This document shows, piece after piece, positions 8,290 through 58,508 of a stretch of 64,000 nt of DNA. Below the pieces are notes generated by a model, which was not told the DNA's origin, did not search any database, and worked only from the letters and a program-made list of their open reading frames with translations. The stretch lies in the NCBI GenBank assembly GCA_016647705.1, contig CM028329.1, forward strand, positions 56,623,231-56,687,230, given 5' to 3'. The stretch comes from Eucommia ulmoides (lineage: Eukaryota > Streptophyta > Magnoliopsida > Garryales > Eucommiaceae). Position numbers and translations under genes: made by a program. Every line of letters starts with the position of its first letter. Position 1 is the first letter of the stretch.

Positions 8290-9420
8290 AATGTAACATC
8301 AATTAAAATTCTCATTCTCATATGGGATATATTTCAGCACTGCCCCCCCCCCCCCCCCACACACACAAAAAAAGGTCGTTTTGTATTCAACTGTCAAGTG
8401 AATGCTGAATGAAACTAGGGATGGTCATGGGCTTGGGGGCCCGCTAAGCCTGCCCAGCCGGCCCTATTTTTATGGGGCTTGGGTGCAAACTTTGAGTCTA
8501 TGGACAGGATTTGGGCTCAAGTTTTGAGACCCAGCGAGGTAAAAATTTTTAGGGCCGGCCCAAACTCAGCCCGAGTATTTTTTTGGTAAGCACATATCCC
8601 TAAATATGTCTGTGTTCGCTCTTTACATTCACGATTCATTGTTTGGCGAGTAGTTGACCCAAAAAAATTGTTTGGTGAGTACACGATTCATTGTAGGAAT
8701 TATTATTATTATTATTTTGGTAGAAATAAATGGTTGATTATGTTTTTATTTTTATTTAATTTTGAAATTTAAAAGAAAATTATAGGGCCGGGCCGGGCCG
8801 GCTCGAGGGTCGGGCTTGGACCCAAATTATTTTGATAGGGCCGGGCTTGAAAATGAAAATAAGACCCGACCATAGGGTCAGGCCGGGTTAGGGCCTTGTA
8901 TATTTTTGTAATATACCCTAGTTAAAACCCGGCCCATGTCCAAACCTAAATGTAACATTCAACACAGGTCGTGTTACATTCAACATTCAATTAAAAAATG
9001 TAAAACATCCCACTCTGTTGGTGTTGTTTGTCTAATACATTTCATTACCCCCCCCTCCCCCACACACACACATACAAAGCTCATGTTACATTTAACATCC
9101 AAAGTGAAAAATGTTGATGTAACATTCAACACATGTCATGTTACATTCAACCGTCTAGTGAATTTTGAATGTAACATTCAACACAGGTCGTGTTACATTC
9201 AATTTTCAATTAAAAAGTGTAAAACATCCCACTTCGTTGGTGCTGTTTGTCTGATACATTTTTATCACCATCACCCTCCACCCTCCGCACACACAAGCTG
9301 TGTTACATTTCACATCCAAGTAACCTGTTGAATGTAACATTCAACATATGTCATGTTACATTTAACATCCCGAAGTGTGAATATTGAGTGTATCATCAAT
9401 TAAATAGTGTAAAAACATTC
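8290..9420. repeat. Tandem array of about four diverged units of roughly 180-220 bp
   Basis: Each unit has the same order of parts: TCAATTAAAAA, GTGTAAAACATCCCACT, a C-rich then (CA)n tract, and several GTTACATTCAAC motifs. Unit starts are near 8300 (interrupted by the hAT-like insertion at 8416), 8988, 9208 and 9392. The C/CA tract is at 8342-8367, 9048-9075 and 9268-9297. Confidence 0.7.
8416..8948. mobile_element. Second type of non-autonomous hAT-like element inside the MULE
   Basis: Inverted ends: TAGGGATGGTCATGGGCT at the left, and TAGGTTTGGACATGGGCC reading in from the right. Eight-base flanks aatgaaac (8408-8415) and aatgtaac (8949-8956) match at seven positions, as expected for a hAT target duplication. 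The right-hand copy is part of the GAATGTAAC motif that fills this region, so the element landed in one of those motifs. The interior is G/C-rich in two blocks (GGGCCGGGCC) and non-coding. Confidence 0.75.
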
Positions 9421-10259: not shown

Positions 10260-11650
10260 GTGTTTTGTGTTGACTGTTAGATTCCACATTGACTTGGATG
10301 TTGAATGTAACATGACTTGAACGTACATGAGTGTAACACCCCCGTGTGGTGGAATGTTTACATTTTCTAATTGGTGTTACATTCAACACAATAAGAAATG
10401 TTTTGGTCAAAAAACAAATACAATGTGTGGTCGATCCCCATGTGGCTGTAGAAGAAATGTGATCATCCGCGTCGTCTTATTTTACCTGGCACGAGATGCA
10501 ATCCATGTTGAATATTACATGGCTTGTGTACATTGTTACATTCAACAATGACTTAGGTGTTGAATGTAACCTGACATGGATGTACCATGAATGTAACACT
10601 CGTGGGTAGTACATTGTTACATTCAAAGTATTAAAATCCCCCCTCTTCGAGTGGAGCTTTGCAAGATTTCCTGTTATGTCATGACATTTTACCGCATCTC
10701 CCGCATCGTCTTCTTTTACCTCCCCATTAGATGTAATCTGTGTTGAATGTAACATGACTTGTGTTGATTGTTACATTCAACATTGATTTTTGGGTGTTTT
10801 ATTGATATTACATTCAACACACCAAGTATTGTTTCGGTCACCCAATATATAATGTGTAACAATTCCACGTGTGGCTGTAAAAATATGCGATTTTACGATG
10901 GTGTTACATTCAACAAACTTATGGGTGTTGAATGTACCACGCACATAAAAATTTTAATAAAAAATCGAAAGTATTAAAATCCCCCTCTATTCGGTTTGTG
11001 CTTGGGAAGATTTCCTGTTTTGTCACGGCATTTCATCACATCTCTCGCATAGTCTTTTTTTACCTCCCCATTAGATGTAATGCATGTTGAATGTAACATA
11101 ACTTGTGTTGATTGTTACATTCAATGTTGGTTTTTAGGTGTTTAAATGTAACATGACTTGGATGTAACATGAATGTAAAACCCGTGGGGTGGGCCGTTTA
11201 CATTTTTTAATTGATGTTATATTCAACAGACCAAGAAAAAAATGTTGGGGCAAGCAAAGACAATGTGTAGAATAGATTCATCATGTGGCTGTAAAAAAAA
11301 TCGGCTTTACGTTGGTGTTATATTCAACAAACAGTCGATGTTGAATGTAACATGCACATAACAAATCTTATATAAAAACAACATATAAACGCAGATGATT
11401 GTGGATGATAACCAACCCCCAAATGAGAAAAAAATAGATGTTTTATTCATGTCTAATAAAATCTATGAGAAACATAGATTGTATTTGGTTTGAAATAAAA
11501 ATCTAATAAAAAATCAAAGTATTAAAATTCCCCCTATTCAAGTGGTGCTTTGCAAGATTTTCTATTGTGTCTCGACATTTGACCACATCTTTTGCATCGT
11601 CTTTCTTTTACCTCCCCACGAGACGCAACCCAAACTTTCCTCGGTCTTCC
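10260..11650 (-). repeat. Repeated copies of the 3' end of the MULE transposase gene
   Basis: The last coding block of the transposase (11534-11660, minus strand) encodes GEVKERRCKRCGQMSRHNRK followed by SCKAPLE and a stop: a zinc-knuckle-like end. Diverged copies of this block, each followed by TGTTGAATGTAACA spacers, lie near 10980-11080, 10640-10735 and (shorter) 10450-10500. All share CCCCTCT, GCTTTGCAAGATTTCCTGTT, then CGCATCGTCTT and TTACCTCCCCATTAGA. Local amplification of the gene's 3' end is the simplest reading. Confidence 0.7.
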
Positions 11651-13844: not shown

Positions 13845-15302
13845 GTTCAAAACAAAAAAATCGTATTCCCCCCATCAGTGCACAAAAAAAAAGATCAACG
13901 AGTACCCATACAAATTATTTTGTGTTGTTCATATGAAATGTAACATTCTGTGTTTTTTTATTCCTGAATGACATTGAATAAGTTTTGATGCATGCATGTG
14001 GAATGTAACATCAACGTGCGCACTCCATACCGTGTGTGGATGTTGAATGTAACATCCATGCACGTGTTGTATGCGCGTGTTGACATAATAATCATTGTTT
14101 ATTTTTCTCAAAAAAATGCCAGCGGTATCCAACCAAATGAGATCATTACATATGCATGTTCAAGATACGCTGATCATGTGGATGTTGAATGTACATCACC
14201 GTGCGCACTCCAGACCGTGTGTAGGTGTTGAATGTAACATCTATGCATGTATCGTATGTGCGTGTTGAAAGTAACAATCATTGTTTATTTTCTCAAAGAA
14301 AATGTCAGTAGTATCCAACCGAAGGGGATCGTCCTGTACGCATGTTCAACACACACTGATCGTGTAGATATTGAATGTAACATGATTGTGGGTGGATGTT
14401 GAATGTAACATCCATGCATGTGTCGTATGTGCATTTTTACAATAACAATGTTTAATTTCCCAGAAATAAACAAAACAAAACAACCCAAACAAAACACACT
14501 GGTACCCCATTCGTGAACGTCTTTATATACAAAATGGTTGTCTTTGAATTAAACAGAATGAACTTTATCAAAAAATTAATTTTGAAAATGAATGCATTTT
14601 GTTGGTGAACACACTCATAATTATATGCGTCGTAAAAATACCATTTTTTACATACCTGTTGCGATTTGGTGCTAGCTCTGTAAAAATGTCGACTTCTAAG
14701 TATCGACGGTGCTCGGCTGGTGACTCTTCCACTTCCGCTCTTCCGATTGAATATCAAAATGTATTTCGGAATGCTCGGTCTATTATTCTCCGATCTAAGT
14801 TCACTGAACTGATTTGAAATTCAAAAAACCCTAATAATGGAATGTTTCGTTTTCTCAAATCACCGATGCATTGTGGATGGAAATCCCAATCTAAAAATGG
14901 AAACATCTGTTGCAAAAATGCAGGGGGATAAATCGGTAAACCATTATCGGCGATAATTGCAGCGTGGGGCTTCTCGGTGCAGAAACAAACAGCGAAGGGA
15001 CTCACCGGTTCATTTCCAAACGTCTAGGTTTGATTGGTTACTGTGAATTAAAAACAGGATGTGGTGGTCATTTTGTCAATTTTTATTTCATTAGAGTCAG
15101 AAATATTTGAAAAAATATACATTATTTTTTAGAAAATTTTTAATTATTTTTTGACAAATTTTTTTTCTAAAGCCAATTCTTTCTTCAAAATATTTCACCC
15201 AAGTACAACTACTATAAAAAATTATGCGACATCAGACTCTATTGGATAAAGAAATTGATGTGGTCAGGTGTGGTCAACGAGAAATATGCAAATCTCAGTC
15301 TT
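13845..15302. other. 5' flank of the MULE transposase remnant and spacer
   Basis: Contains three diverged repeats near 13985-14075, 14170-14260 and 14340-14420 (each with GATGTTGAATGTAACATC, CGTGCGCACTCCA or CGTATGTGCG, and CATGCATG). Further upstream relative to the transposase, at about 14650-15005, is a stretch that looks like the untranslated leader, with a possible donor near 14660. From 15060 to 15302 I see only A/T-rich sequence. Confidence 0.4.
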
Positions 15303-17305
15303 GAAATAATTAGGAGGTATAATATTGAGAGAGAATTTAAGATGATTGTATTAATTATGAAAAGATACAATGTTATAGAGATGTGCAAAGGGTTTATGTA
15401 TAGAAAGTGTGATTAGGGATTTTCTAATGGGATGATGATTTAACCTAGTGGGTCAAAGTTCATATACATATATTAACATCCCCTCTCAAACTCAATGTGG
15501 TAAAGCAGACACTAACTTCATTTTGGAAATCAAAGTGTGAAAGCGTCCAAGTGGATTTGTCTTGGTGAAAATATATGATGTTTTATTGGCAAAACTGATA
15601 AAGTGGAGATGAACAGTATGCTGAAAAAATATGGGGATGGATGAAGTGACAATCATTCTTGATGTGTTTAGTGTACTCGTGGGAAATGTCACTATTGGCA
15701 ATGTAAATAGTATTCCAGTTGTCACAATTTATAACGGTAGTTGTAGAGAAGGAAAAACCATGTTAAAGATGAGCCAGCAAAGCCAAAATAGTTTCTGTAT
15801 TGCGTCAGTGATGACACGATTCTCAACTTCAGTACTAGAATGAGCAACCACAATTTGTTTATTACTGCAACAGAAAATGAGTGAGTCACCCAAGAAAAAA
15901 ATAATAAACTAGTGGTAGAGCGTATGTCGGTAGGATCCTCGGTCCAGTCAGCGTCAGAATAAGCCTTTAAGATGGTAGTGGACCGTGCTAAGAAATGAAG
16001 CTTGTAAAATAAAGTGTCTTTGATATATCGAAGAATATAAAGAACAACCGAGTAGTGAATGGTCCGCGGAGCAAAAAAGAACTTACTGACTTGATGGACA
16101 ATAGAGGCAATGTCGGGGTGAGTAAGGGTGAGATATACCAAATTTTCAATCAGTTGGCGATAAAAAGTAACATCAGGAAAATGTGATGCATCTAGTGGAG
16201 TAAGTCTGATATTCAACTCTATAAGAGTGTTGGCAGTGGAGAAGTCAATTATGTCAGACTTGGAAAGGAAATCAAAGGCATATTTGGCTTAACAGAAAAA
16301 TATCCATCTGAACTAGATGAAACATCAAGGACAAGAAAATAGATGAGAACGTCAAGATCTTTCATCTTGATTTGGCCACTGTGATTTTTTTTTGAGGTTG
16401 GAGATACCACGTAAATAATCCCTAGTAATAATCATGTCATCTATATTCAATAAAATAAGAATAATTTCGTTGTCAGTGTGGCCAAAAAACATGACAGAAT
16501 TATGATTGTTATATGTAAACCCAAACTGGTAGAGGATAGTGTTGAATTTTGCGAACCAAGTATGTAGAGCTTGTTTGAGACTATGTAAGGGATGATGAAG
16601 GCGACAGACCTTGTGTTGAGGAGCAGCTAGGCCAGGAAGGGTATGCATGTAAACTTCTTCAAGGAGATCGCCATTGAGGAAGTCATTCTTGCCATCCATT
16701 TGAAAAATGGTCCATTTATGAATGATAGCAACGACAAGGAGAGTACAGACAGATGTGAGAGTAGCCATGATAGTAAATTTCTCTTCGTAGTCAACGCCAT
16801 ATTCATGAGAAAATCATTTAGCAATGAGCCGAACTTTATAGCGTTCAACAAAACCATCAAAAAGCGCTTTGATTTTGAACATCGACTCGTATCCAATATG
16901 AGTTTTTCCAAGGGGAGGTCAACACAATCCTAGATGTGAGTTTTTACTAACCCCTGAAGTTGTTCGTCCATTGCATTCTGCCAAAAAGGGTTAGTACTAG
17001 CCTCCTTATAGGAATGAGATTCATGCAAATTAAGTATAACAGAAAAGTGATGATATTCATTGAGATAAGAGGGGTGCTGAGTTACCCTATTAGAGCAGCG
17101 AGAGTGATATGATATTAGGAAAAATTAACTATTGATACTATGTTAAAATAATTTAAAGGGAGAATATTAAGAGAGAATGTGAAATTTTTGATATGGGTTA
17201 AAAGGTACAATATTAAATAAATGCACATAGGGGTTTTATATAGACAATGGCTAGTGTTTTTCTAATAGAATTAAGATTTAAACTAATAGACCATATTAAC
17301 GCTTA
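15303..17305 (-). mobile_element. Ty1/copia-like LTR-retroelement fossil, internally deleted
   Basis: Minus-strand remnants of reverse transcriptase (about 16350-16770) and RNase H (about 15720-16220, with YSDADWTEDP as the landmark) identify a Tnt1-like copia element. Diverged direct repeats of about 170-190 bp at both ends (15303-15480 and about 17140-17305) look like short LTRs. Gag and most of integrase are absent. It is broken in several places and, from the weak LTR match, old. Confidence 0.75.
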
Positions 17306-20645: not shown

Positions 20646-22856
20646 CTAAGCAGGCACCCAACAGGAGCTAGCACATACTATACGACCCTTCCATCCCTGC
20701 AACAGCCAACGACCGCCTTGATCGAACAGAAAATCTTTGTGATACCCACTCCTCACCTTAACCATTAATTTCTTCAGTATATCCTGGTTCAACGGGAGGA
20801 GCTTGAAGCCCGCCCTAGTATTACGAATCTGCCACTGTTTGTACGTTTCGGGCCTCTCTACCCTCTCCGAGCCTTCGCACGCAATTACGTTCATGACCTC
20901 ACGCCCGTAAAACTCCCTCTCAAAAATAAACCTCTCCAGAACATCACGGCCCAAAGTAGCATCAAACATATCGAACAAAGCCGAGTAGTGGAAAAGTGCT
21001 TCCCGGAAACGGGTCACGAAGAACGGAGCACTGTAGGACCCGCTAATGACTGCATGGACAAAGATTTTAGGATTTATGTCCCTTATTAATTTCAGGACAG
21101 AATCCCTAGGACTATCCACCATGACTGTCTCGTCAAGTAGGTTTTTGAACCGATGCAAACAGTTGACGGCGACGAATTCGTCTTCCTCAATCTTGAGGTC
21201 TTCGGGTTTGATTGTCTCCCAATTCTGTGTGGCTATGGCGTTGTACTTGAATTGAATGTTGAAACGTTCACAGTATTTGGCCAAACGCTGCCCAGTCTTC
21301 TCAACCAACTCTGTCGGCCGAAACCCGGTTTGTGGAAGCTCAATTCCTGTGATCCGAAGAACGGGGGACCAATCGGGTAACATTGAAATGTGTTGGATTA
21401 GGGCGGGCCATTGGAAACCGTATTGAATACCGAAATCTATGATATGAAGTTTTTTAGCTCCCTTTGCTTTTTCCACTATCATTTTGTTCGCGAAGAAAAT
21501 TGATATCTTCTTGAACGGGCATGCTGATAGATAGACCTGGTAAGCTTTCAGTTTTTCGGCGGCCGATATCTGTTGTTTTGAAGCCGATGCGGCGTATAAC
21601 TGGGTCCCAGTGCCGGCTAGGCGTGCCTCAAGACCGTCCGCGAATATAGCCGCCAAACGCTGTGAGGTGTCGCCGGAAGGCAGAGATTGCTTCCGGATTT
21701 GATTCAACTGTTCGTCCGCCGTCCTCCGATCGTCGGCAGCAACGGACTGTGCACAGCTCACCAAAAGGGTCCGGAGATCTACCGCTTCATCGTCGCTCGG
21801 CCCTCGGACCTGCCCGTTGGACTGAAAATTTTTCAGGCCCAACGGTTCGTCCTCGGCGGTACAACACATCGTTTGCCCGTTGGTGTCGGTACAAAGAAGA
21901 ACACGATCAAAAATCTCCGACAATTCCTCTACCTCGTCCAAGTAAACCGCCGACTGTTTGTTACTCCGCTCGTCCTCGAGATCGCTATCGTCTAGTTCAT
22001 GATGTTTCCGACCCCGTCCGCTAGATCCGTTGGGCAGGCCCCTCTCGTTCATCTCCCTCTTGACTGTAACTTCCGGCGCCGGCGCTGGCACTGGAATCCC
22101 TCCGGTCGACTTGGGCGGCAAGTTATACTTGTCCAAATCAATCAGCAACTGATTACCCGTTGGAAGGAACTTGCTCGCTTCCTCCATCCCTCTCTTGAAA
22201 AGAGCGATCGACTCGCTGTCGCTAAATATGTCCGGAACAACCGGCGAAAAGGTTGTAAGACCATTACCGTTGTTTCCATTTATGTTGTTTCTGCCTATGT
22301 TGTTTTCAGAACCGGAAGACAGCTGACTATACGATGATCTATGTTCTCCGGGATCAACAAACCAGTGATGATCATTGGAATTGCTTCCACTACTACTGCT
22401 ATTTGTACTGTATTCGCTCGAGCTTCCACAAAGGTTGTCCGGGCTATGGACATTGAGAGGGGCGGGTTTGTAGGTCGAAGGAGGGTAATTTTGTCCTAGG
22501 ACATCATAGAACGATTTCTCGGCTGCTTGTAAGGCCAAAGGATCATGAAACATGCTCGGTTTATCATCCATGTTTTCTTCTAGAAGGATTTGGTTAAGGT
22601 ATTTGAGAACAGGATCAGACTCTTGTTCGTCAGGGGAGTTTGCTTCCGAGCTTGAACCAGGAGATGGAGTGAAATTGCCAAAGTCTAGAGTGGGTTGAAT
22701 AAAAGAAAGATCCTTAAAATTGATGTCCGAGGAATCATCCCTGTATTTAAGGATGTTGGGTGAATTCATGGAGTGATCAAAACCCGGCAAAACCGTATCA
22801 TCATCGAACTTGAAGGCATTCATTGAGCCGGAGTATTCATCGAAATACGGATCCAT
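20646..22856 (-). CDS. GRAS-domain transcription regulator, LISCL (SCL14/SCL33-like), 736 aa
   Basis: A single uninterrupted coding exon, as is usual for GRAS genes. The first ATG (22854-22856, MDPYFDEYSGSMNAFKFDDD) fits the LISCL start. The variable N-terminal half holds the conserved LISCL segments FGNFTPSPGSSSEANSP, VLKYLNQILLEENMDDKP, MFHDPLALQAAEKSFYDVLG (about 102-121), a Ser/Asn-rich linker and an acidic patch (DDSDLEDE). The GRAS domain begins near residue 358 (VDLRTLLVSCAQSVA), with LHIIDFGIQYGFQWP (about 470), the PFYRE region (PFFVTRFREALFHYS), RVERPETYKQW and a SAW end in SCWVPA. LISCL proteins act as nuclear co-activators, for instance with TGA factors in xenobiotic responses in Arabidopsis; a similar role here is inference. 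It lies about 19 kb from a same-strand paralogue at 17-1863. Confidence 0.95.
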   Translation of the reverse strand: MDPYFDEYSGSMNAFKFDDDTVLPGFDHSMNSPNILKYRDDSSDINFKDLSFIQPTLDFGNFTPSPGSSSEANSPDEQESDPVLKYLNQILLEENMDDKPSMFHDPLALQAAEKSFYDVLGQNYPPSTYKPAPLNVHSPDNLCGSSSEYSTNSSSSGSNSNDHHWFVDPGEHRSSYSQLSSGSENNIGRNNINGNNGNGLTTFSPVVPDIFSDSESIALFKRGMEEASKFLPTGNQLLIDLDKYNLPPKSTGGIPVPAPAPEVTVKREMNERGLPNGSSGRGRKHHELDDSDLEDERSNKQSAVYLDEVEELSEIFDRVLLCTDTNGQTMCCTAEDEPLGLKNFQSNGQVRGPSDDEAVDLRTLLVSCAQSVAADDRRTADEQLNQIRKQSLPSGDTSQRLAAIFADGLEARLAGTGTQLYAASASKQQISAAEKLKAYQVYLSACPFKKISIFFANKMIVEKAKGAKKLHIIDFGIQYGFQWPALIQHISMLPDWSPVLRITGIELPQTGFRPTELVEKTGQRLAKYCERFNIQFKYNAIATQNWETIKPEDLKIEEDEFVAVNCLHRFKNLLDETVMVDSPRDSVLKLIRDINPKIFVHAVISGSYSAPFFVTRFREALFHYSALFDMFDATLGRDVLERFIFEREFYGREVMNVIACEGSERVERPETYKQWQIRNTRAGFKLLPLNQDILKKLMVKVRSGYHKDFLFDQGGRWLLQGWKGRIVCASSCWVPA

Positions 22857-22873
22857 GACTACGGCTTGAAATC

Positions 22874-23431
22874 CTAAAAAAAATGATAACCAATATTATA
22901 TATATAATTACTTTCAAACCCTAAATTCATCAAAATCATAACTAATTAAGATGTAGAATATGCAGAGACACAAGAAATGCCTACCAAAATGAAAGGAGAT
23001 AAGCAAGAATCAAACCCTAAACATAAAAAAGACAGGCAAAACCCCTGAACATGAAGAACATAAACCTAAGTTTAAGGATGCAAAACAAATCAATAAAATT
23101 TCCTTAACAGGACATAGAGCTAATCAACTAAAGAAAAAGTAGCTCATATTTCATGGATCGTGCGATGATTAAAGCATAGAACAAGCTCAAAAGTGAGTGA
23201 GTGAGAGAGAGAGAGAGAGATAGAGAAATATCACAACATGATCGAAGAAACCCTAAGCACCGAGAAGAGAACAGAGCAAATAGAATTAAAAACAACAATA
23301 ATTCTAAAAAATATACATAATACCTAAAAATCACATCAACAAACAGAAGATCGAGCAAGAACACATGAGAACAAACCAGCAGAACACAAAACAAAAACGA
23401 AAAACAATTTTTTCCTTCCTACTCGGCGTAC
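22874..23431 (-). other. Probable 5'-UTR intron of the second GRAS gene
   Basis: Reading the minus strand, CTCAG is followed by GTACGCC (donor at 23431) in a C/T-rich leader, and a T-rich tract ending TTTTTTTTAG (acceptor at 22874-22875) lies 17 bases before the start codon. Removing these 558 bases leaves a leader of CT repeats joined directly to the coding exon. The intron holds a (CT)n tract (about 23200-23222 on the plus strand as GA). 5'-UTR introns are common in this gene group. Confidence 0.65.
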
Positions 23432-23777: not shown

Positions 23778-25007
23778 AGGAAAAATTACATTTTAAACTT
23801 TTCATATATTGACATTTTTTTATATAATTTTTTTTTGTTTGTGCGTTTCATTTTAAATACTCTCGTTACGTTTGGTACGCTGAAATAAAATAAAAAAAAT
23901 AAAATAACAATAGAATTAAAATTAATATAGTAATAGAATGGAATGATTATTGTCATTCATATGTTTGGTGACGAAAGGGATTATATATGGTATTGAAATA
24001 ACATCAAAGAATAAATAATAATTTAATTAAATTTTCAAATGGTATAATAGTTAATTTAATTAAATTTAATTCAAATTAAAATATTTATTTTATATTTGGT
24101 CTCATTTTTTGGCCAATTATTGATTAAAACTTAATCTCATGTAATTAGGATTAACCAATATCAAGCTTAAATTGGTATTGGTTAATCTCATACTTTGTGG
24201 GATTAGGGATTCCTTGGTAATGGAAATGGGATTAAATCCCATGTACTAAACATAGGGATGGAATGACCATTCCAGTGGTCATTCCAATCACATCTTGAAT
24301 CCCGCGTACCAAACGTCATTTCTAGGTATAAGCTCGTTTTTATTTGGTCATTCCGTCAGAAATTCCATCCAAAATAACAGAATATAAGGGTAAAATAGTC
24401 TTTTTACTTATTTTTTATTTCTTAATGATTTCTTTAATTTCTTTTATTTTTTCCCTTAATTTCTCTCTCTCTCTCTCTCCCCCTATCATCTCTCTCTCTT
24501 CCTTCTTCCTCCCGATCATCTCTACCTCTCTCTCTCTCTCTTCCTTTTTCCTCCCTCCCTCATTTATTTCACAGAGGGTGTAACGCCCCCTATTAAGGGG
24601 GTGATCACCCCCATAACAGGGGGTGTTTCACCCCTGTTAAAAACAGGGGGGTGTTACACCCCCTCTTGAAGGGGGTGAAAACACTCCCGTAACAGGAGTG
24701 CCACCCCTGTAACAGGGGTAGGCGGGGGAAGGGAGGGAGAAGAGAGAGAGAAAGGAGAGACAAGTCAAACCAAAGAAAAAGAAAAGAAAAAAATATATTA
24801 AAAATTGATTAAAAAAGGAATAAAAAAATTAATAAAATATAAAATGACGATTTTACCCTCAAAATTCAATTAGTTTTGATAGAATTTTTTACGGAAGGAC
24901 GGAATAAAAACGTGTTGATACCTAGAGAGTTTAAAATGAAATGCGCAAACGGAGAGAGACCATTTAGAAAAATGTCAATACCTAGAGGGTTTAATATGTA
25001 ATTTTCC
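23778..25007. mobile_element. Non-autonomous MULE-like element upstream of the second GRAS gene
   Basis: Long inverted arms: AGGAAAAATTACATTTTAAA at the left; right arm ending TTTAATATGTAATTTTCC. Next to them are GTGCGTTTCATTTTAAA (left) and its inverse (right), then CT-rich tracts and G/C-rich palindromes at 24570-24725 (CACCCCTGTTAAAAACAGGG, GGTGATCACCCCCATAACAG). Flanks tttgttttc (23769-23777) and tttgttttt (25008-25016) match at eight of nine bases, consistent with a 9-bp MULE duplication. A separate MITE interrupts the left arm (23869-24315). Confidence 0.7.
23869..24315. mobile_element. MITE-like element (CGTTTGGTACGC ends), copy 1, nested in the MULE-like arm
   Basis: Inverted ends CGTTTGGTACGC (23869) and GCGTACCAAACG (ending 24315). 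The interior has GGAATGACCATTCCAGTGGT and TTGGTATTGGTTAATC, shared with a second copy split across 47196-47858 and 58406-58508. It interrupts the left arm of the 23778-25007 element. Flanking bases are TTA on the left and TCA on the right, so the target duplication is unclear. Confidence 0.65.
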
Positions 25008-25099
25008 TTTGTTTTTATTCTTATCCAGGAATTATAAATAAAAAAATAATGAAAAATAATATATATGCAAATTTACGAAACTATGAACGTGAACGATCA

Positions 25100-27354: not shown

Positions 27355-30300
27355 TGTTAGACCCTAACAATGCTGGAGGACCAAACAGTACCAACTTGGT
27401 GCGATTTGCTACCGGATATGGTGCATGAGGCATGGATGGGTTCGTTGGCAAATGGGGCACCAACTTGGTGCCTATCGGTGGGCAGCAGCGTTGTGGCACA
27501 ACATCGACGGGTGTTGGGCAGTGTGGAAGACCTCGGTGCGGGACCGAGGCAAAATGGTGCAGCGTAGATGCAACACTACATTGTAAATGGTGCTTTGGAC
27601 GCGGCAACACACGTTGGAGGAGCGGTGAGGTGCTGGACCAAGTTGTTGGGCAGGCGTTGGCAAACTGGTGCGTTGTTGGACAACGTGGACGCACGTTGGC
27701 GGCGTTAACAGAGGTTGCTGATAATGGGGTTCTCGTTGGGGAGTGACGGGACCAAATGAAGATCTCGGTGTGGTACCGAGGCAAAATGGTGCAACGGAGG
27801 CGCAACGATACGTGGTAAACAGTGTCATGTGTGCAGCGTGGCGGACTGTTAGGAACAACGGTGCATTTTGGTGCAAAAAATGCATACGGCGTTGGGACGG
27901 CGTTGGGCAGAACGATGCAACAAAACAGAACGTAGGCGCAACGCTACATTTTGGGCTGAGTCATGAAGAGGCATGATGCACCGTTAGGCGGCGGTGCATT
28001 CTGGTGCGAAAATAGTACACGGAACGTTGGCAGATCGTTGGGCGCAACGACACGTTCCGGCCATGCAGCGGCGTGGCAAAACGTTGGTGGACGTTGGCAA
28101 ATTATGGGACGAGATGGCAACGGGCAGACGTTGAGACGATGCAAAAACACTGAAAGAATGTTACCTGGTGAACTGATGGACTGGAGGTTTCCAGACATGT
28201 GTAGTGCATGTATGAGAAGTTCTGGGCAGTTCTTGGGCGGTTTTGGTTGGTTTTCAGACAGGAAAACCAACTCCTGTGGTGCTGACAAGTGTAGGGACAG
28301 GTGTCGGTAGTCTGCCTATGCAGTTGGGGCTGTCAACTACTGTCTTCTCCTATAAATACTGTTGTTTTGGTCTGTTTTTAGAGGTTGGAATGTACTCCTG
28401 CGGATTTTACAGACAAAGTGTTGTATTTGGTTCCTTGTAACCGGAGTTTATTAATACAAAGTTGGGTTTTCCCGTAATACGTGTGCGTACTGTTGCGTAG
28501 GTGCGTTTCGGTAGTGTTTCGGTGTATTCCCGTTGTATTTCGTTACAGGAACATGTGTGCTTATAATCTGTCGGTGTAATTCCGTTGTGAGGCAGTGCAT
28601 TTACCGTGGGCTGACTGATTGTGCAACGATCAGGCCATTACTTGGTTTAAAATTGGTGCTGAAAATTTTAGACCCTGTGATAGTGGGTATCAGAGCAGGG
28701 CTACGAGTGGGCTCTGCGTCGGTGCACGAACGACCAACAACGTTGGAGGAACGGGCGAAGGCGTTGGACCAAGCTGTTGGGCGTTTGTCGACATTTTCGC
28801 TGTTGGTGAACAGTGAAGAGCAGGATGGTTCCTGCGTTAGGTATGAACAGTCGATTGGAAGCGTTGGAGGACTACGTCGGTGTGCCACCGACGGCCGGTG
28901 AAGTGAACCTGTCCGTGCAGAACGCTGAACTGAGGGTCGACCTGGTGAACCTGCGGAATTCTTTTGAGAAATTCTGTACCGATACGACGGCCAGATTCTC
29001 GTCCATGGCGGAGGATGTGATTATGATGGCCGACGTACTGAAAAGCAACATCAAGTGAGTGGATGATGAAGTTGCTGTTTTGAAGCAGACCGGTGCTGGA
29101 CAGCGCACGTCAGGGGACGGAGCAGCACGGATGAAGGTGTCGGAACCAACGGCATTTTCAGGCACTCGAAGTGCCAAGGAGGTAGAGAACTTCCTATGGG
29201 ATATGGAGCAATATTTTCAGATTGCTCATGTTTGTGACGGTGATCAAGTTTCCATGTCAACGATGTACATGGTGGGCGACGCAAAGCTGTGGTGGCGAAC
29301 GCGTGTGGCTGACAGCACACGTCCGGCGGTAGTGACGTGGGCAGACTTGAAGAGGGAACTCAGGGAGCAGTTCCTACCAACGAACTCGAGTTGGTTGGCT
29401 CGAGATCAATTACGGCGACTCAAGCACACGGGATCGGTGCATGAGTACGTGAAGGAGTTCACATCCTTGCTGTTGGATGTGAAAAACATGTCGGAAGAGG
29501 ACAAGCTCTTCAATTTTATTTTCGGCTTGCAATTGTGGGCGCAGGCAGAACTGCGACGGCAGGGCGTGCATGACCTGCCTACTGCTGTGGTGGCGACAGA
29601 CAACCTGACCGACTGTAACCTGACACGAGACGGTAGCGAAACAGACCGGAAGTCAAGTAGGAAAGGCAAGGAGAAAATGAACGAGGGCACGAAGGAGTGG
29701 AAAATCAGAGGCGTGCAGGCCAACGTTTCTGAGGGACCCCGTTCAAAATCACAACCGATGTCGGCTGCGAGTAAGAGTCGAGGTTGTTTTATCTGCGACG
29801 GTCCTCACCGGATGAGGGACTTTCCGAAGAAAAAAAGACTGACGGCGCTGGTTCGGGAGGAATCAGACGAGGAAGGCTCTGGACGGGAGACGGCACATGT
29901 TGGTGCAGCGTTGTTGGTGGACAACAACGAGCAGGCCAGGAGTGGTCTGAAAACAGGTATGTAATGAACCTGTTTGAGATGTAGGATACCGGAAACAGTC
30001 ATATGTCCCTTGTTGAAAAATAACTGGAGGAGGCTGGTTATTTATGGGTTTCCAAATGGGCGTCTGACTTCATTGGAGGATGGGGAGTGTTGGACCAAGT
30101 CGTTGGACGAATGTTGACACTGCGTTGCTGGAGCACAACGGACTGACCAGGAGCGGTCTGAAATTGGCTGCGTGCTGCCATTTTGCAAACGGACACCTTA
30201 TATCGTTGGAGGAACGACGGAGCGTTGGACCAAGTCGTTGGGTGCACGTCGAAAATACGTTATCAGTGGACAACAATTCTGACTGGGTACGGTCTGAAAT

Positions 30301-32342
30301 CAGGTATGCTGTGATTCCTGATTTGGGGCATGGAATTCAGGAAAACATTCTATGCCCGTGCTTAAAAATAACCGGTGGAGGCTGGTTATCGTTGAAATCT
30401 CCATACGGGGTTTACTGCGTAGCATACTGGTGGACATTCCGGTCATGGACGATGTTCTGTGGCCAACACGTTGCAACGGATTGCAACGAACTGGTGGAGA
30501 AATACTGCTGGCAGAATGAGGAGGCTGTGGCAGTATCATCGGCATAAACGTATGCCAAATTCAGTTGATGCAGTAGTAACTGGGCTGGTGGTCAGTCTGG
30601 GTCACGGACGGGTTTCTGTGGCAAAAACGTTGCAGTGAGGTGCAACGAACATGATTAAGTCGACGGACAGATTGTGAAGACTGTGGCTGACGCAATTGAT
30701 GAACACGTTGCAGGGAGTTGCAACGGAATGGTGCAAGTCTGTGGGTAGATTGTGTAGGCTATGACAGACGTAATTTGACAAACACGTCGTAAACGAGTTA
30801 CAACGGACCGGTGTGAGTCTACAGACAGAATGAGGAGACTGTGGCGGACCAAAATTAACAAACATGTTGCTACGGGTTGCAACGAACGGTGAACATGCTG
30901 CTGATAGAATGAAAAGACTGTGGCAGAACGGGTGGCATCGGTGCATGCCAAATCCAGTGGATTATGCTGGGCACGATCCGACGAGGACGTCGGGTTCTTT
31001 TATTGGGGGTGGTTTGTTAGACCCTAATAATGCTGGAGGACCAAACAGCACCAATTTGGTGCGATTTGCTACCGGACATGGTGCATGAGGCATGGATGGG
31101 TTTGTTGGCAAATGGGGCACCAACTTGGTGCCTATCGGTGGGTAGCAGCGTTGTGGCACAACACCGGCGGGTGTTGGGCAGTATGGAAGACCTCGGTGCA
31201 GGACCGAGGCAAAATGGTGCAGCGTAGGTGCAACACTACGTTGTAAATGGTGCTTTGAACGCGGCAACACACGTTGGAGGAGCGGTGAGGTGCTGGACCA
31301 AGCTGTTGGACAGGCGTTGGCAAACTGGTACGCTGTTGGACAACGTGGACGCACGTTGGCGGCGTTAGCAGAGGTTGCTGATAATGGGGTTCTCGTTGGG
31401 GAGTGACGGGACCAAAGGAAGATCTCGGTGCAGTACCGAGGCAAAATGATGCAACGGAAGCGCAACGATACGTGGTAAACTATGTCATGTGTGCAGCGTG
31501 GCGGACTGTTAGGAACGACGGTGCATTTTGGTGCGAAAAATGCATACGGCGTTGGGACGTCGTTGGGCAGAACGATGCAACAAAACAGAACGTAGGCGCA
31601 ACGCTACGTTTTGGGCTGAGTCATGAAGAGGCATGACGCACCGTTGGGCGGCGGTGCATTCTGGTGCGAAAATAGCACACGGAACGTTGGCAGATCGTTG
31701 GGCGCAACGACACGTTCTGGCCATGCAGCGGCGTGGCAAAACGTTGGTGAATGTTGGCAGATTATGGGACGAGATGGCAACGGGCAGACGTTGGGACGGT
31801 GCAAAAACGCTGAAAGAATGCTACCTGGTGAGCTGATGGACTGGAGGTTTCCAGACATGTGCAGTGCATGTGTGAGCAGTTCTGGGCAGTTCTTGGGCGG
31901 TTTTGGTTGGTTTTCAGACAGGAAAACCAACTCCTGTGGTGCTGACAAGTGTAGGGACAGGTGTCGGTAGTCTGCCTATGCAGTTGGGGCTGTCAACTAC
32001 TGTCTTCTCCTATAAATACTGTTGTTTTGGTCTGTTTTTAGAGGTTGGAATGTACTCCTGCGGATTTTACAAACAAAGTATTGTATTTGGTTCCTTATAA
32101 CCGGAGTTTATCAATACAAGGTTGGGTTTTCCCGTAATACGTGTGCGTACTGTTGCGTGGGTGCGTTTTGGTAGTGTTTCTGTGTATTCCCGTTGTATTT
32201 CGTTACAGGAACGTATGTGTTTACAATCTGTCGGTGTAATTCCGTTGTGAGACAGTGCATTCACTGTGGGCTGACTGATTGTGCAACGATCAGGCTATCA
32301 CTTGGTTTAAAATTGGTGCTGAAAATTTTAGACCATGTGACA
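27355..32342 (+). mobile_element. Gag-only LTR-retroelement fossil (TR-GAG-like), complete ends
   Basis: Two LTRs of 1328 bp (27355-28682 and 31015-32342) flank about 2.3 kb. The flanks are a perfect 5-bp duplication, cctag (27350-27354 and 32343-32347). A tRNA-Met-like primer site (GGGTATCAGAGC) lies just inside the left LTR and a purine-rich tract (TTGGGGGTGG) just before the right one. The interior has a gag region (about 28830-29970, with WWRTRV and FICDGPHRM landmarks) but no pol. This matches non-autonomous TR-GAG elements. By eye the LTRs differ at about 63 positions (4.7%), nearly all transitions and with no length change, implying roughly 2-3.5 million years at commonly used plant rates. 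It is broken and depends on another element for pol. Confidence 0.85.
30460..30945 (+). repeat. About 80-bp minisatellite in the interior of the gag-only fossil
   Basis: Units start with a variant of ACACGTTGCAACGGATTGCA and contain AGACTGTGGC. Starts are near 30466, 30626, 30701, 30781 and 30862 (spacing 75-81, with one double step). They occupy the place where pol would be in an autonomous relative. Confidence 0.75.
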
Positions 32343-46949: not shown

Positions 46950-47195
46950 ATCTAAGTTTTGGGCTTACGATGATTTGTATAAAAAATTTGGAAAGAAAAT
47001 ATGGAGATAAGAATTATATACAAGGTTGCTAAGAGCTGTGAAGGAAAGAATAGAGATCTAGAAAATTTTACAGACATTAAAGACATTGACAAAAATGTTT
47101 TAGTGAAAGATAGAGAGATTAGTATAGTTTATTGAATGAGATTAGTGTTGGAGACTCAAGTTTAGAACTTCTAGTTTGCCTCCAAGTAGGATTTA
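46950..47195 (+). pseudogene. LINE remnant, copy B, left part (endonuclease-RT linker)
   Basis: Fragments AYDDLYKKFGKKI, then (in another frame) IYKVAKSCEGKNRDLENF and DIDKNVLVKDREI match the linker between endonuclease and RT of plant L1-type LINEs. It stops at 47195, where a MITE-like element begins, and resumes at 58509. Confidence 0.6.
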
Positions 47196-48326
47196 GGTTG
47201 CTTTTGGTACACATGATTTGGCGTGGGATTGGAATGGTCATGGGAATGATCATTCTATTTCTATGTTTGGTCATTAGACTAAATTTCATCCTCATTACCA
47301 AGGATTTTCTAATCCCCCAAAACAAATGATTAACCAATCTCAAGATAAATTTGGTATTAGTTAATCCTGATTACATGAAATTAACTTTTATTCCTTCACG
47401 GGCCAAAAATGGGGACCAAACACTGCCCAAATATGAAAATGGAAATTAAATTTAATTAAATTATTATTTTTCCTTTTGAAAAATTAATTAAATTACTATC
47501 TTACCCTTTGAATTTCTAGCAAGTGTACCCCTTGCTTTTATTTTATTTTTGTGTTTACACTCCCCTCCCTCCTCATCCTTCCTCCCTACACCATCTTCTC
47601 CGGTAGGAATCCAACGTTGGCAGTTAGCGCCAAATTCTCTCTCTCTCTCTAATTAGCCCGCTAGTCTCCATCGGTACTACAACCCTAACCTTGTCGGTAA
47701 CACCACCATCCAACCTCCGCCGGCCCCCCACATCTTATGTTTTTTCAGTTGAGCCTTTATTGTATAAATGCATTGATTCTTGATTTATTCTCAACACTAA
47801 TAAAATATTGGAATGAGAATGGTCATTCCAATACTACATCTAATCTTTTTTGTCACCATGTTGGGATTTTATTCTCTATAGATTTGAATCTATAACACCT
47901 TAATCAACATATCAAATCATCAAGAGTTCTAATGTACACGTAAATTATGTACCTGGATCCATTACGATCAATTAACTTCTGATGCAGAATCCTGTGACAA
48001 TCGATCACGAGAAGAACACGGATCAAGTGGGTACGTGGTCTTCCTCAACCAAATCTCCGGAGTTCCTCAATGAGATTCGCGATTCACTTCTAGATAGAGA
48101 GAAGTGAGCCGTCAAGACGATTTGGAATTATTGGGGACCATAACCCTTACATTACCTATTTATATGGTGTGATTAGGGTTTCCATAATCCCCTAATTACC
48201 CTAACAATTTTCGGTATCTACTCATTTCAACCCACATTCTTATGAGTAGTCTATGGGCTTACCTAAATTCATTAGATCACTTAATTTTAATCCATTAAAT
48301 TTAAATAGCAAATATAATTGTATTAA

Positions 48327-50612
48327 GGAAAAAGTACAATTTAGACCCTCTAACTATTGATACATTTCTAAGTGGCCCCTCTAACTTTCAACGTTTTATT
48401 TCAAGCCCTCTACGTATCAAAACGGCTTTAATTGGTCCTTCCATTAGAGATTCTGTTAAAACTAACAGAATCTCAAGGGCAAAATGGTATTTTCACGTTT
48501 TAAATTTTTTTTTATCATTTTTAATATAATATATTTATTTTTTATTTTTATTTCTCTCTCTCCTTCTCTCTCCCCACCACCTCCCTCTCCCTCTCCCCCT
48601 GCCACCTCCCTCTCCCTCTCCCTCTCCTTTCCTCCCTGTCATCCCCATAACAGTGGGTGATTCCACCCCCTGTTGTGGGGGTGAAAAACACCCCTGTTGT
48701 AGGGGGTGAAACCACCCCCTGTTTTGGGGGTGGAACTTGGAGATGAATGTGGGTGAGAGAGTGGAGAGTTGGATGTCATATTCTATCATGCCCCCGCAGG
48801 CGCAAGCCATTCGGAAGAATGCTAAGCTTGAAAACCTGTGAAATTCGTATATTTTTCCAAATACCCAGAAGAGGAGAGAGAGAGTAGAGAGAGAAAGTAA
48901 AATGAAAACTTGCATGGATGAGAGAAAAAGAGATAGGTTGGTGCATGGAAGTAGTGGAAACATGGTAGAGAGAGAAATGAAAGATTTTGTGGAGAGAGAG
49001 AGACGTGGGTTGGCATGCATGGATGATGTGGGTAAGCACAAACATCACATTTATCAAACATGGATGAAGTAGAGAAAAAGTATTGCATGCAATCGTGTAG
49101 AGAGAGAGAGAGAGGCATGTTTGTATGGCACGTTGCTGGATAATCGTGGGACGCGGGAGAGAGAGTGTGTTGCATGGCAATCGTGGTACCGATGGTCGAT
49201 CTACTGCTCAAACCAGGAAAAAAAAGAGGATCGGTTGCTGCTTGAAGCTTGATTGGGAAATTCGGAGAGAGAGACCAAAGAGGCGTTTAGTTTACTGAAG
49301 TACTGGAGAGGCGGTGGAGTTGGCGGTGGTGGTGGATGTGCGACTTTCGACGGCAGTGCTACTACTAAAGTTCGTGGCTCTGAGCCTACAACGATTGTTA
49401 GCGCCGTAAGTGCTTACTTGTTGGAGAGTGAGGACGACGATGACGGACCGTTTTCTGACTTGGAGTTCGTCATTGAAGACGACGGAGAGGGAGGTGGAGA
49501 TGCGAGGGATGGTGAAAACGTGGAGAGAAATTGTGAGGAAGACGAGGAGGAGGAGGACGACGAGAGAGGCTTTAATTTTGAGCTTTCTTCCGGTTCGAGG
49601 GCCGACTGTACTGATCCGAACGTTGCGCTCTCTGCCGCCGAAGATCTATTCTTTAACGGATGGCTTGTTCCGGTTGAGCCTTTTGAATTGATTTCGAAAT
49701 CGCAATTCTCCGCTTCGCTGTTGAAATCGGGGACGAAATTTCTCGTAATGATGTTGAAGCTGAAGAAATCAAAATTCGGCGCGGCGGAAAGAAACGAAAC
49801 GAGCGTTCCAATTTTGCCGAATCGAAAGCCGCGGCAGGAGAAACAACCGGAGAATCAGTCAGAGAAGCAAAACCAAACGAAAACGAAAATGCAGAGTAAG
49901 TTTTTCACGATGAAGCTGACGTCGAAGAAGTTCTGATTATGTTTCTGTTTAGCAGAGACAACAGCTCGAAAGGTTCAAAGGAAAAAACGCCGAAGCGAAG
50001 CTTGGAGGAGCCGACGCCGGAGGAGAAGCGATTCTCGAAAGAAGCAATGTATAGATATCTGAGAATGGTGAAGCCTCTGTACATTCGCGTCTCGAAGTGT
50101 TACGGCGATAAGCTCAGGCTTTCTAGTCTCCTCTCGTAACATGAAATTTGAAGAGAGGAACTTACCCCGTAATAGAGGGTGAAACCACCCCCTGTTACGG
50201 GGTGGGTTTCACCCCCGCAACAGGGGGTGGAATCACCCCCTGTTGCAGGGGTGACGGGGAGGAAGGGAGAATGAGAGAGAGAGAGAGGTGGTGGGGAGAG
50301 GGAAAGGGAGGTGGCGGGAAGAGGGAGAGGGGGAGAGAGGTGGCGGGGAGAAAGAAGGAGGGAGAGAGGAAGAGAGAGAAATAAATAAATAAATAAACAA
50401 ATATATTATATTAAAAATGATAAAAAAAAAAAAAAATTAAACGTGAAAAGACCATTTTGTCCCTGAGATTCTGTTAGTTTTAACAGAATATCTAACAGAA
50501 GGACCAATTAAAGCCGTTTCGATACGTAGAGGGTTTGAAATAAAACGTCAAAACTTAAAGGGGCCACTTAAAAATGTATCAATAGTTAAAGGGTCTAAAT
50601 TGTACTTTTCTT
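48327..50612. mobile_element. Pack-MULE-like element carrying a captured MAKR gene
   Basis: Arms of about 420-450 bp are inverted relative to each other: outer AAAAGTACAATTTAGACCC, then TCTGTTAGTTTTAACAGAAT, then a CT/GA-rich tract, then G/C-rich palindromes (CACCCCCTGTTGTGGGGGTG at 48666; CACCCCCTGTTACGGGGTGG at 50188). A perfect 9-bp duplication, ttgtattaa (48318-48326 and 50613-50621), flanks the element: the MULE hallmark. Joining the flanks restores the copia LTR as seen at 57893-58405, so the insertion is exact. The core (about 48750-50155) is a host gene segment. No transposase is present. Confidence 0.85.
49277..50139 (+). pseudogene. Captured MAKR (membrane-associated kinase regulator, MAKR2/BKI1-like) gene fragment
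   Basis: MAKR proteins are plasma-membrane-associated regulators of receptor kinases, related to BKI1. The frame reads EAFSLLKYWRGGG (the usual MAKR N-terminus after Met), GPFSDLEFVIEDD, an acidic linker, LSAAEDLFFNGWLVPVEPFE and SKSQFSASLLKSGTKFLVMM. In the other frame from about 49925 it reads EEVLIMFLFSRDNSSKGSK and SKEAMYRYLRMVKPLYIRVS followed by KCYGDKLRLS. Three lesions: the Met before EAFSLL is AAA (49277-49279) with no replacement ATG; one frame change near 49920-49930; and loss of the C-terminal tail, where the stop (about 50139) lies just before the transposon arm. About 500 bp of upstream, GA-rich, promoter-like DNA (48770-49270) was captured too. No intron is seen; MAKR genes are commonly single-exon. 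The family call is my recognition, untested. Confidence 0.7.
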
Positions 50613-53600
50613 TTGTATTAATAATATGTTACTCAAAATTAAATTAAGAAATAAAATTTTCTAACAATCTCCCACTTGGGCTACATATTATCCCTGAAAC
50701 AATTATATCACAAAATTCATTAGGTATGCATACGTATGGTATTTATTCTTAGACTTCTCCTTAAATAATCTGGTCTATCTCATATACTAACAATGGAATT
50801 ACTGCAACTTATATCACAATACAGTCATGACTAAACCACGATGACCACCATACTAATACACTCAATGACATAGATCAAATGTGGATGAGTAGTATGGAAA
50901 TTATATGCAATGTGATCTCAGACATTCCTATTTTCAACTGGTTCAACTTTAGTCTTTAATGAGATCAATGCTTAGTCTTTCTATCCTTATATTAAACCAC
51001 AATTAGAAAAAATACATTCAGAGTAAATAAAATTTAATCCATCAATTTTATTCAGCAGAAATCAAATATACGTATCTAATAAAAGAACATCCAATAAACA
51101 CAAACTCCTACTAAGCCAACACATTATCAGATAAAACCACACTTATACAAGTAGTGTGCTCATGAAATATCTTAGGTGTCAAATCTTTAGTGAGCGGATC
51201 CGCAATCATGAATTTTGTTCCATATGTTCTATAGATACTATCCTACTCTAAATTGTCTCTTTAGCAACTAAAAATTTGATTGGAATCAGAATACCCAATG
51301 ATCTCCAAATGATCTATCTTCTGATAAGTGAGCATGTAATCTTTTTGTTTTTTGTAAATACCTTATAACCCGTTTGGCTAATTTCCAACGATCCATTCCA
51401 GGGTTACTTAAGTATCTGCCAACATTCCAAATATGAAAGCTAAATCTGGACGTGTACATACTTAAGCGTACACAAGACTCCATTCTTCTTCTATATTTCT
51501 TTCTTTTCCAACTCATTCTTGGGGCATTGAGTGAGACTAAACATGTCTCCTTTAGCGACAGTAGTATTTCCTAGTGCACAATATTTCATGTCAAATCTAG
51601 CAAGTACTTTATCGATATAACTCTTTTATGATAACCCAAAGGTATCCCAAGAGCGATCTCAATGTATCTTTATTGCTAATATAAAAGAGACGTCCCCAAG
51701 ATAATTTTTAGTTAGAAATCTCTTGATTTCATGCAATAAGCCTATATCATTACCAGCTATCAATATGTCATTGACATATAGCACCAAAAATAAAGAATTT
51801 ACTCCCACTGAATTTGTGGTATACACAATCATCAACTTCATTTACCTCAAAACCATATGTGACAATGATTTGATGAAATTTGTGACACCATTTGACGGGA
51901 AGCTTGTTTGAGACCATAGATGGATTTCTTTAACTTGCAAACCATAGACTTTGAATTGTCTGATACAAAATTTTCTGGCTGCACCGTATATATCGTTTCG
52001 TTAATGTCTCTATTGAGAAATATAATCTTGACATCTATCTAGTTTAGCTCTAGATCAAAATGAGCCACCAGTGCTATTATAGTTTTAAAAGAGTCTTTCG
52101 AAGATACCGAAGAGAAAGTTTCTTTGTAGTTTATGCCTTCCTTTTGAGTAAAGCCTTTGGCGACTAAACGAGTTTTATATCTCTCGATGTTACTCTTCAA
52201 ATCCCTTTTGGTTTTAAATATCCATTTATAACTAATGGGCTTCGTACCTCCAGGTAACTCGACGAGATCCCAAACATCATTGTCTTTCATAGACTTCAAC
52301 TTATCTTTCATGGCATCAATCCATTTTTTAGAGTTAGAACTACGCATGGCTTGATAGAAGTTGATTGGGTCATCTTCTGTTAAACCAACACCATCCTTAT
52401 GTTTTTGAAAAAATACGATATATTCATCTAAAATCTCATTTCTCTTCTCTCTAGTGGATCTCCTTAATGTCACTTCTTGAGGTTGTTGAGTTTGTTCTAT
52501 AGATTGTGTTTGAGGAAGAATCTCATTGTTGTCTTGGTCTAGAACAATGTGAGGAAAAATGAGCCTGAACCTGAACATTGTTATCCAGAGTCAAAACAGT
52601 GTCTTTAACAGTGATAGGTATAGAGACCTGATCACTATCAATAAAATGTTCCCCTTCGAAGAAAATTGTGTCTTGAACAACAATAGGTACAGAAACCTAA
52701 TCACCTTCAATAGCTAATTCTTCTTCAAAGATAACATTTGTTCTCATTCCCCCTCAAACTCAACACCCTTAAGGAATCTCGCATTTCCTATTTCAAAGAA
52801 AGATCTTGATGTGGGATCGTAAAACTTAAATCCTCTTGATCGTTCAGTGTACCCAACAAAATAGTAGCTAACCGCTCTTGAGTCCAGTTTTCTTTCATAT
52901 GGCCTATAAGGCCGTGCCTCAGCTGGACAACCCCAAATGTGCAAATGCCTAATGCTAGGTTTTACGCCTAATCATAGTTCATAAGGGGTTTTAGCCACCG
53001 CTTTACTTCGTACCCTATTCAGGATATATGCTGCAGTCTTAAGTGCTTCTCCTTAGAGTGATTCTGGTAAGAAGAATGAATTATCATGCTTCTTACTATG
53101 TTCTTAAGCATTCTGTTTTGTCTTTCAGCAACACGGTTCATGCCAGGTTTGCCCGGCATAGTGTACTGCGGGGCGATTCTGCATTTCTCTAGGAATTTAG
53201 CAAAGGGTCTTGGACATTGTTTTCCTGATCAGTCAAATCTCCAGTAGTATTCACCACCATAGTTTGATTTGACAGTCTTATTTATCTTTCCAAGTTGAAG
53301 TTTAACTTCATCTTTGAAAGACTTAAGTACGTCTAAGGATTGAAATTTCTTATGAATTAAAATAGGTACCCATAAAGAGAGCAGTAGTCTATGAATGTAA
53401 TAAAATATTGTTGTCCATTCCAAGATGCCGTAGGAAATGGTCTGCAGTACATATTAGTTCTAAGACACCGGAAGTCCTATTGGCACCCAATTTCCATATG
53501 TTTGTTTGCTTCCTCTTTATTCATTTAATACAAACTTTGAAATTTGTTAAATCAAGGGGATCAAGAATTCCATAAAAAACAAGCATCTCTATTCTTTGCT

Positions 53601-57620: not shown

Positions 57621-58508
57621 CCGACCTGTCCAAGTCTGGTTCGGTTCTTATGTTTCTGTGGTGAAAAGACCCCCAAAATTCCAAAATTTAGGATTTTTCT
57701 TTGTTTAGATTCATAATATTTAGTAAGAAATCATATAAATCATGCAAAACATATAATAAACCTTATTGTTTTCTCCCACTATTTTTACAAATAAGCAAAC
57801 TTTAATGGAGAAAACACAAACCCTAAAATTCTACGAACTTAAAAAACTCAAGAACCCGAATGATTTAACATGAAGTAGACTCTGATATCACTTGTTGGGA
57901 TTTTATTCTCTATAGATTTGAATCTATAACACCTTACTCAACATATCAAATCACCAAGAGTTCTAATATACACGTAAATTATGTATTTGAATCCATTACG
58001 ATCAATTGACTTCTGATGCGGAATCTTGTGACAATCGATCACAAGAAGAATACAGATCGAGCGAGTATGTGATCTTCCTCAACCAAATCTCCGGAGTTCC
58101 TCAATGGAATTCACGATTTACTTCCAGATTGAGAGAAGTGAGCCGTTAAGACGATTTGGTATTATTGGGGACCATAACCCTAGCATTATCTATTTATATG
58201 GTGTGATTGGGGTTCTCATAATCCTCTAATCACCCCAACAGTTTTCGGTATCTACTCATTTAAACCCACATTCTTTTGAGTAGTGTATGGGCTTACCCAA
58301 ATTAATTAGATCACTTAATATTAACCCATTAAATTTAAATAGAAAATATAATTGTATTAATAATATGTTGCCCAAAATTAGATTAGGAAATAAAATTTCC
58401 TAACACACGAAGCATAGGAATGGTAACGACTATTTCATTGTATTATCATACTAATTTCAGTCTTATTGTCATTCTATTTCATTCCATTCAATTATACTAA
58501 ACGTAGCG

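Follow-up and report, generated by a model that had tools for sequence, protein, structure and literature searches.

A Pack-MULE-like element with a broken, MAKR-like gene copy inside the long terminal repeat of an old copia retrotransposon in Eucommia ulmoides

The window, by which we mean the whole 64-kb stretch of Eucommia ulmoides DNA that was analysed, holds a Pack-MULE-like element nested in an old copia retrotransposon (Table 1), together with genes and further repeats. Two GRAS-family transcription factor genes lie on the minus strand at 17-1732 and 20646-22895 (Pfam GRAS, E 3.1e-110 and 5.8e-113) and, sharing a strand, are perhaps a tandem pair or part of a cluster. A second copia-like reverse transcriptase remnant, also on the minus strand, extends over 15722-16813; its part at 16352-16813 matches Pfam RVT_2 (E 4.6e-24), and 15722-16288 gave no Pfam match. 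Direct repeats of 1326 bp (27355-28680 and 31015-32340, 95.3% identical) enclose a gag-like open reading frame (29059-29964, Pfam Retrotrans_gag) and are probably, together with it, a younger LTR retrotransposon. Local clusters of direct repeats, 76-86% identical, are found at 8949-9366, 10265-11618 and 13993-14383.

Table 1. Features of the nested element, its host retrotransposon and its relative (positions in the window)
Feature	Positions	Strand	Evidence
Left target site duplication, TTGTATTAA	48318-48326		9-bp exact match to 50613-50621; present once in the partner LTR (58352)
Left terminal inverted repeat	48327-48730 (inner edge approximate)	+	Pairs with the reverse complement of about 50164-50612; GGGGGTG/CACCCCC repeats in the inner parts of both arms
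Captured upstream region, putative promoter or 5' leader	48731-49279	+	549 bp; non-coding codon scores; TATA-like TATATT at 48848
First coding block, MAKR-like N-terminal and middle part	49280-49909	+	No stops in 210 codons; within the open reading frame 49253-49936
Second coding block, other frame, ending in a stop codon; MAKR-like C-terminal part	49915-50139	+	No stops in 74 codons; within the open reading frame 49900-50139
Right terminal inverted repeat	50164-50612 (inner edge approximate)	-	Pairs with the left arm
Right target site duplication, TTGTATTAA	50613-50621		9-bp exact match to 48318-48326
Copia 3' LTR, larger part	47859-48326	-	With 50622-50666, 513 bp, 90.6% identical to 57893-58405, no gaps
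Copia 3' LTR, smaller part	50622-50666	-	First 45 bp in the LTR's own direction
Copia reverse transcriptase fragment	52039-52590	-	Pfam RVT_2, E 4.9e-18; gives the direction of the host retrotransposon
Copia 5' LTR, empty site	57893-58405	-	Single TTGTATTAA at 58352, without insert
Geneless, left-truncated relative of the same Mutator-like family	24321-25009		68-70% identical to both arms, with the same inner repeats

The element occupies 48327-50612 (2286 bp), the same limits as in the original prediction, and its terminal structure bears out what was claimed there: the 9-bp duplication is perfect on both sides, and the inverted arms are long, about 404 bp on the left and 449 bp on the right, with an alignment that extends inwards to about 48730 and 50164. 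The outer arms (48330-48513 against 50426-50609) are 90.8% identical over 184 bp, with 11 transitions and six transversions, and the three outermost bases differ between the two arms. As TTGTATTAA is frequent in the window (nine copies, seven on the plus and two on the minus strand), the argument lies in its placement at both ends of the element and in the fact that the partner LTR carries it once. The 19-bp end AAAAGTACAATTTAGACCC was found twice in the 64 kb when up to three mismatches were allowed, both copies being exact, against 0.04 expected; an exact pattern search of viral and genome contigs gave no relatives of this end, and Rfam at gathering thresholds gave no match across 47000-52500. 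Dating the element from the divergence of its arms was considered and rejected, since the arms need not be identical at the time of moving.

The element sits within the 3' LTR of the minus-strand copia retrotransposon, at a point that by its position belongs to U3. Once the insert and one copy of the target are removed from the 3' LTR, both LTRs measure 513 bp and agree at 465 positions, the differences comprising 38 transitions and 10 transversions (K2P 0.10), and the sequences flanking the retrotransposon, CACCA and CACGA, are alike in four of five bases. Substitution rates of 1.3e-8, 7e-9 and 2.5e-9 per site per year give the LTR pair an age of about 4, 7 or 20 million years, which sets an upper bound on the age of the element insertion. 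The empty LTR, which the original prediction had proposed to seek in related accessions, was seen inside the window itself, where the partner LTR has one TTGTATTAA and nothing inserted next to it.

The relative at 24.3 kb, whose layout matches that of the element's arms, is found some 1.4 kb upstream of the second GRAS gene (20646-22895). No convincing target duplication was found for it; GTTTTTATT at 24336 was tried as one and rejected because it falls within the left arm of the relative. Separately, inverted copies of a 290-bp repeat (24004-24292 and 47224-47511, 75% identical) are each close to a Mutator-like family member, which may be chance.

That such a short, geneless relative is present in the window would suit a different history, in which two separate short Mutator-like insertions came by chance to lie on both sides of an immobile MAKR-like pseudogene. 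The perfect 9-bp duplication stands, however, at the outer ends of the whole structure, and the partner LTR shows the entire 2286 bp as a single insertion, so that we consider two independent events extremely improbable and treat the structure as one mobile element.

The element was compared with known systems. Excerpts of PMC3310237, which also describe Pack-MULE interiors as driven by promoters in the arms, give 9-11-bp target duplications and arms of 100-500 bp as features of MULEs, and those of PMC8903248 describe MULE arms as relatively long; the 9-bp TTGTATTAA on both sides and arms of the lengths given above lie within these ranges. Pfam gave no match in nine reading frames, drawn from the 29 stop-to-stop open reading frames of at least 40 amino acids across 48700-50200, and hence no transposase domain in those nine frames, in agreement with the earlier claim that the element lacks a transposase. 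The long inverted arms, the 9-bp target duplication, the absence of a transposase match and a gene-like core are common to this element and to Pack-MULEs, and no categorical difference separates them; particular to this case are the near-whole coding region and about 550 bp of upstream DNA that appear to have been captured, and the broken state of the core. Pack-CACTA elements likewise capture gene DNA between inverted ends, but the CACTA target duplication, according to excerpts of PMC8903248, is 5 nt, against 9 bp here. We class it as an ordinary, well-preserved Pack-MULE-like element whose MAKR-like cargo is unconfirmed.

Between the arms lie 1.4 kb of gene-like DNA, consisting of the upstream region, coding sequence in two blocks and 24 bp beyond the stop codon. 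To score codon use, we employed a measure trained on the two GRAS genes described above (1,302 codons) and expressed in bits per codon. The first block (49280-49909) scored +0.165 in its own frame and the second (49915-50136) +0.147, each exceeding 500 of 500 dinucleotide shuffles taken at their best of three frames, whereas the other 10 frames of both blocks, all six frames of 48750-49276 and all six of a control (47100-47850) were negative. The copia reverse transcriptase fragment, known to be coding, had the highest of its six scores in its own frame, but even that score was negative (-0.039); the measure thus leans towards genes like those of the host and may overlook others. Codon use in both blocks of the core is host-like. 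By contrast, the stop-free stretch of 227 codons is weak evidence by itself, as 23 of 500 shuffled cores had one at least as long. G+C content is highest in the coding part, at 0.49; the sequence upstream of it has 0.44, the arms have 0.42 and 0.43, and DNA outside the element has 0.36 and 0.31. The core has no second copy in the window, where its one other match is a 36-bp GA/CT-rich stretch of the left arm. Taken with the target duplication, the arms and the empty site in the partner LTR, the host-like codon use upholds the original prediction of a Pack-MULE-like insertion of gene-like DNA. The same prediction had spoken of about 500 bp of promoter-like DNA: the upstream region does score as non-coding and contains one TATA-like hexamer, a match made without chance comparison, and it may include a captured promoter.

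The coding copy is broken, at best a transposon-borne pseudogene. The open reading frame of the first block stops at 49934-49936 and that of the second opens at 49900, which places a frame change between about 49900 and 49936. In the frame of the first block the sole ATG codons are at 49748, 49751, 49889 and 49910, none of them preceding 49748, and EAFSLLK is preceded by the codon AAA. At that position MAKR proteins of this kind presumably have their initial M, so the start codon was probably lost by substitution. The peptide blocks named in the original prediction are indeed present, EAFSLLKYWRGGG and FFNGWLVPVEP in one frame and YLRMVKPLYIRVS in another; the difference in frame and the missing start had been overlooked. 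An intact open reading frame, which a working MAKR needs, is absent from the core, and with a frame change and no initiating ATG no full-length protein can be expected by the usual route. Any present effect of the copy would more likely be exerted through RNA.

The identity of the cargo is a separate matter. Two motifs of the core, EAFSLLKYWR and VKPLYxRVS, we take to be MAKR-like. The core protein, whose charges are described here without a control comparison, is acidic in its first half and then turns basic around FLVMMLKLKKSKFG (a modest net +3 to +4 per 20-residue step, likewise without a control); a basic C-terminal block, YLRMVKPLYIRVS, with a net charge of +4, precedes the stop codon. 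Excerpts of PMC7809621 define the MAKR family (membrane-associated kinase regulators) by a cationic membrane hook and a 20-residue C-terminal helix that binds the receptor kinase, within an unstructured protein, and those of PMC10317173 give the same account of disorder and linear motifs. The charge layout and the basic C-terminal block agree with this definition and make the MAKR label plausible.

Database searches did not add to it. Pfam gave no family for either coding block, the PDB gave no match for the second block (E 1) or for its last 27 residues (E 10), and in non-plant collections the first block had no relatives among bacterial and archaeal genome contigs, viral contigs and plasmids, nor the second among viral contigs. 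No parental MAKR gene lies within the 64-kb window, and a literature search found no printed MAKR-like motifs. The label given in the original prediction thus fits the charge layout and the C-terminal block, has no counterpart in Pfam, the PDB or the non-plant collections, and depends on the motifs named above and on the published description of the family. With MAKR/BKI1 proteins the core shares the basic middle stretch, the basic C-terminal block near the stop and the motifs that we regard as typical; it differs in that no in-frame start codon is present and the reading frame shifts ahead of the C-terminal block, and its membership is not confirmed by searches.

Given that no search confirmed MAKR, the core might instead stem from another plant gene family that resembles MAKR in a few short motifs. 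Such a resemblance would have to account for several of the presumed motifs standing in the expected order and for the charge layout as well; moreover, the collections without a match hold no plant genomes, and Pfam may have no MAKR model. We regard another family as unlikely, and judge from the sequence that the core likely, though unconfirmed, derives from a MAKR gene.

We therefore prefer the following history, which as a whole we hold to be highly probable: a non-autonomous Mutator-like element captured a near-whole MAKR-like gene and entered the copia 3' LTR, and the copy has since been broken. A non-autonomous element with long arms would have taken up almost the whole MAKR-like gene, that is the upstream region, the coding region from the first residues to the stop codon, and the 24 bp that follow. 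The non-coding upstream part brought along suggests that the capture took place at the DNA level. Moved by a transposase presumably supplied in trans, the element would then have inserted 45 bp inside the 3' LTR of the already old retrotransposon, giving rise to the 9-bp duplication, and the captured coding region would have decayed afterwards by loss of the start codon and one change of frame. The copy presumably has no function at present. Captured fragments are, according to excerpts of PMC13317346, usually non-functional pseudogenes.

A role at the RNA level was weighed against this history. In its general form, the element would give rise to antisense or hairpin RNA and so reduce MAKR gene expression: transcription of copia from its 5' LTR would run through the core on the minus strand, and one arm could pair with the other. 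The arrangement suits such a route: copia lies on the minus strand and the MAKR-like sense on the plus strand, with the element 45 bp into the 3' LTR; copia read-through RNA from this nested position would be antisense to the core. The duplex of the outer arms was computed at -272 kcal/mol, where 50 mononucleotide shuffles of one arm averaged -45, although such a duplex is expected of any inverted-repeat element. Maize work summarised in PMC13317346 has, in the excerpted text, captured sequences as siRNA reservoirs. The host retrotransposon, however, is old by the divergence of its LTRs, and its reverse transcriptase stretch is only a fragment; we consider a silencing role of the element very unlikely. 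The more specific proposal that copia and the nested Pack-MULE together make a long RNA antisense to an entire MAKR transcription unit, and so form a silencing locus for receptor-kinase regulators, is in our judgement highly improbable.

Pack-MULEs as such are well known, with over 3,000 reported in rice (excerpts of PMC13317346). Literature searches, whose coverage of subscription journals is thin, found no paper that names Pack-MULE together with "membrane-associated kinase regulator", or together with both BKI1 and "kinase inhibitor"; for the full MAKR name combined with "transposable element", no title on gene capture was among the matches listed. As no paper joining the two names was found, the MAKR-like cargo of a Pack-MULE-like element may be undescribed so far, the phenomenon itself being already known.

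The locus presents a clean case of gene capture by a transposon, in which an empty site, an older LTR pair and a near-complete gene copy stand within one 64-kb stretch, so that the order of events can be read. Without small RNAs from the element that match living MAKR genes, it would be one more among the many reported Pack-MULEs; with them, it would tie gene capture to hormone-receptor signalling.
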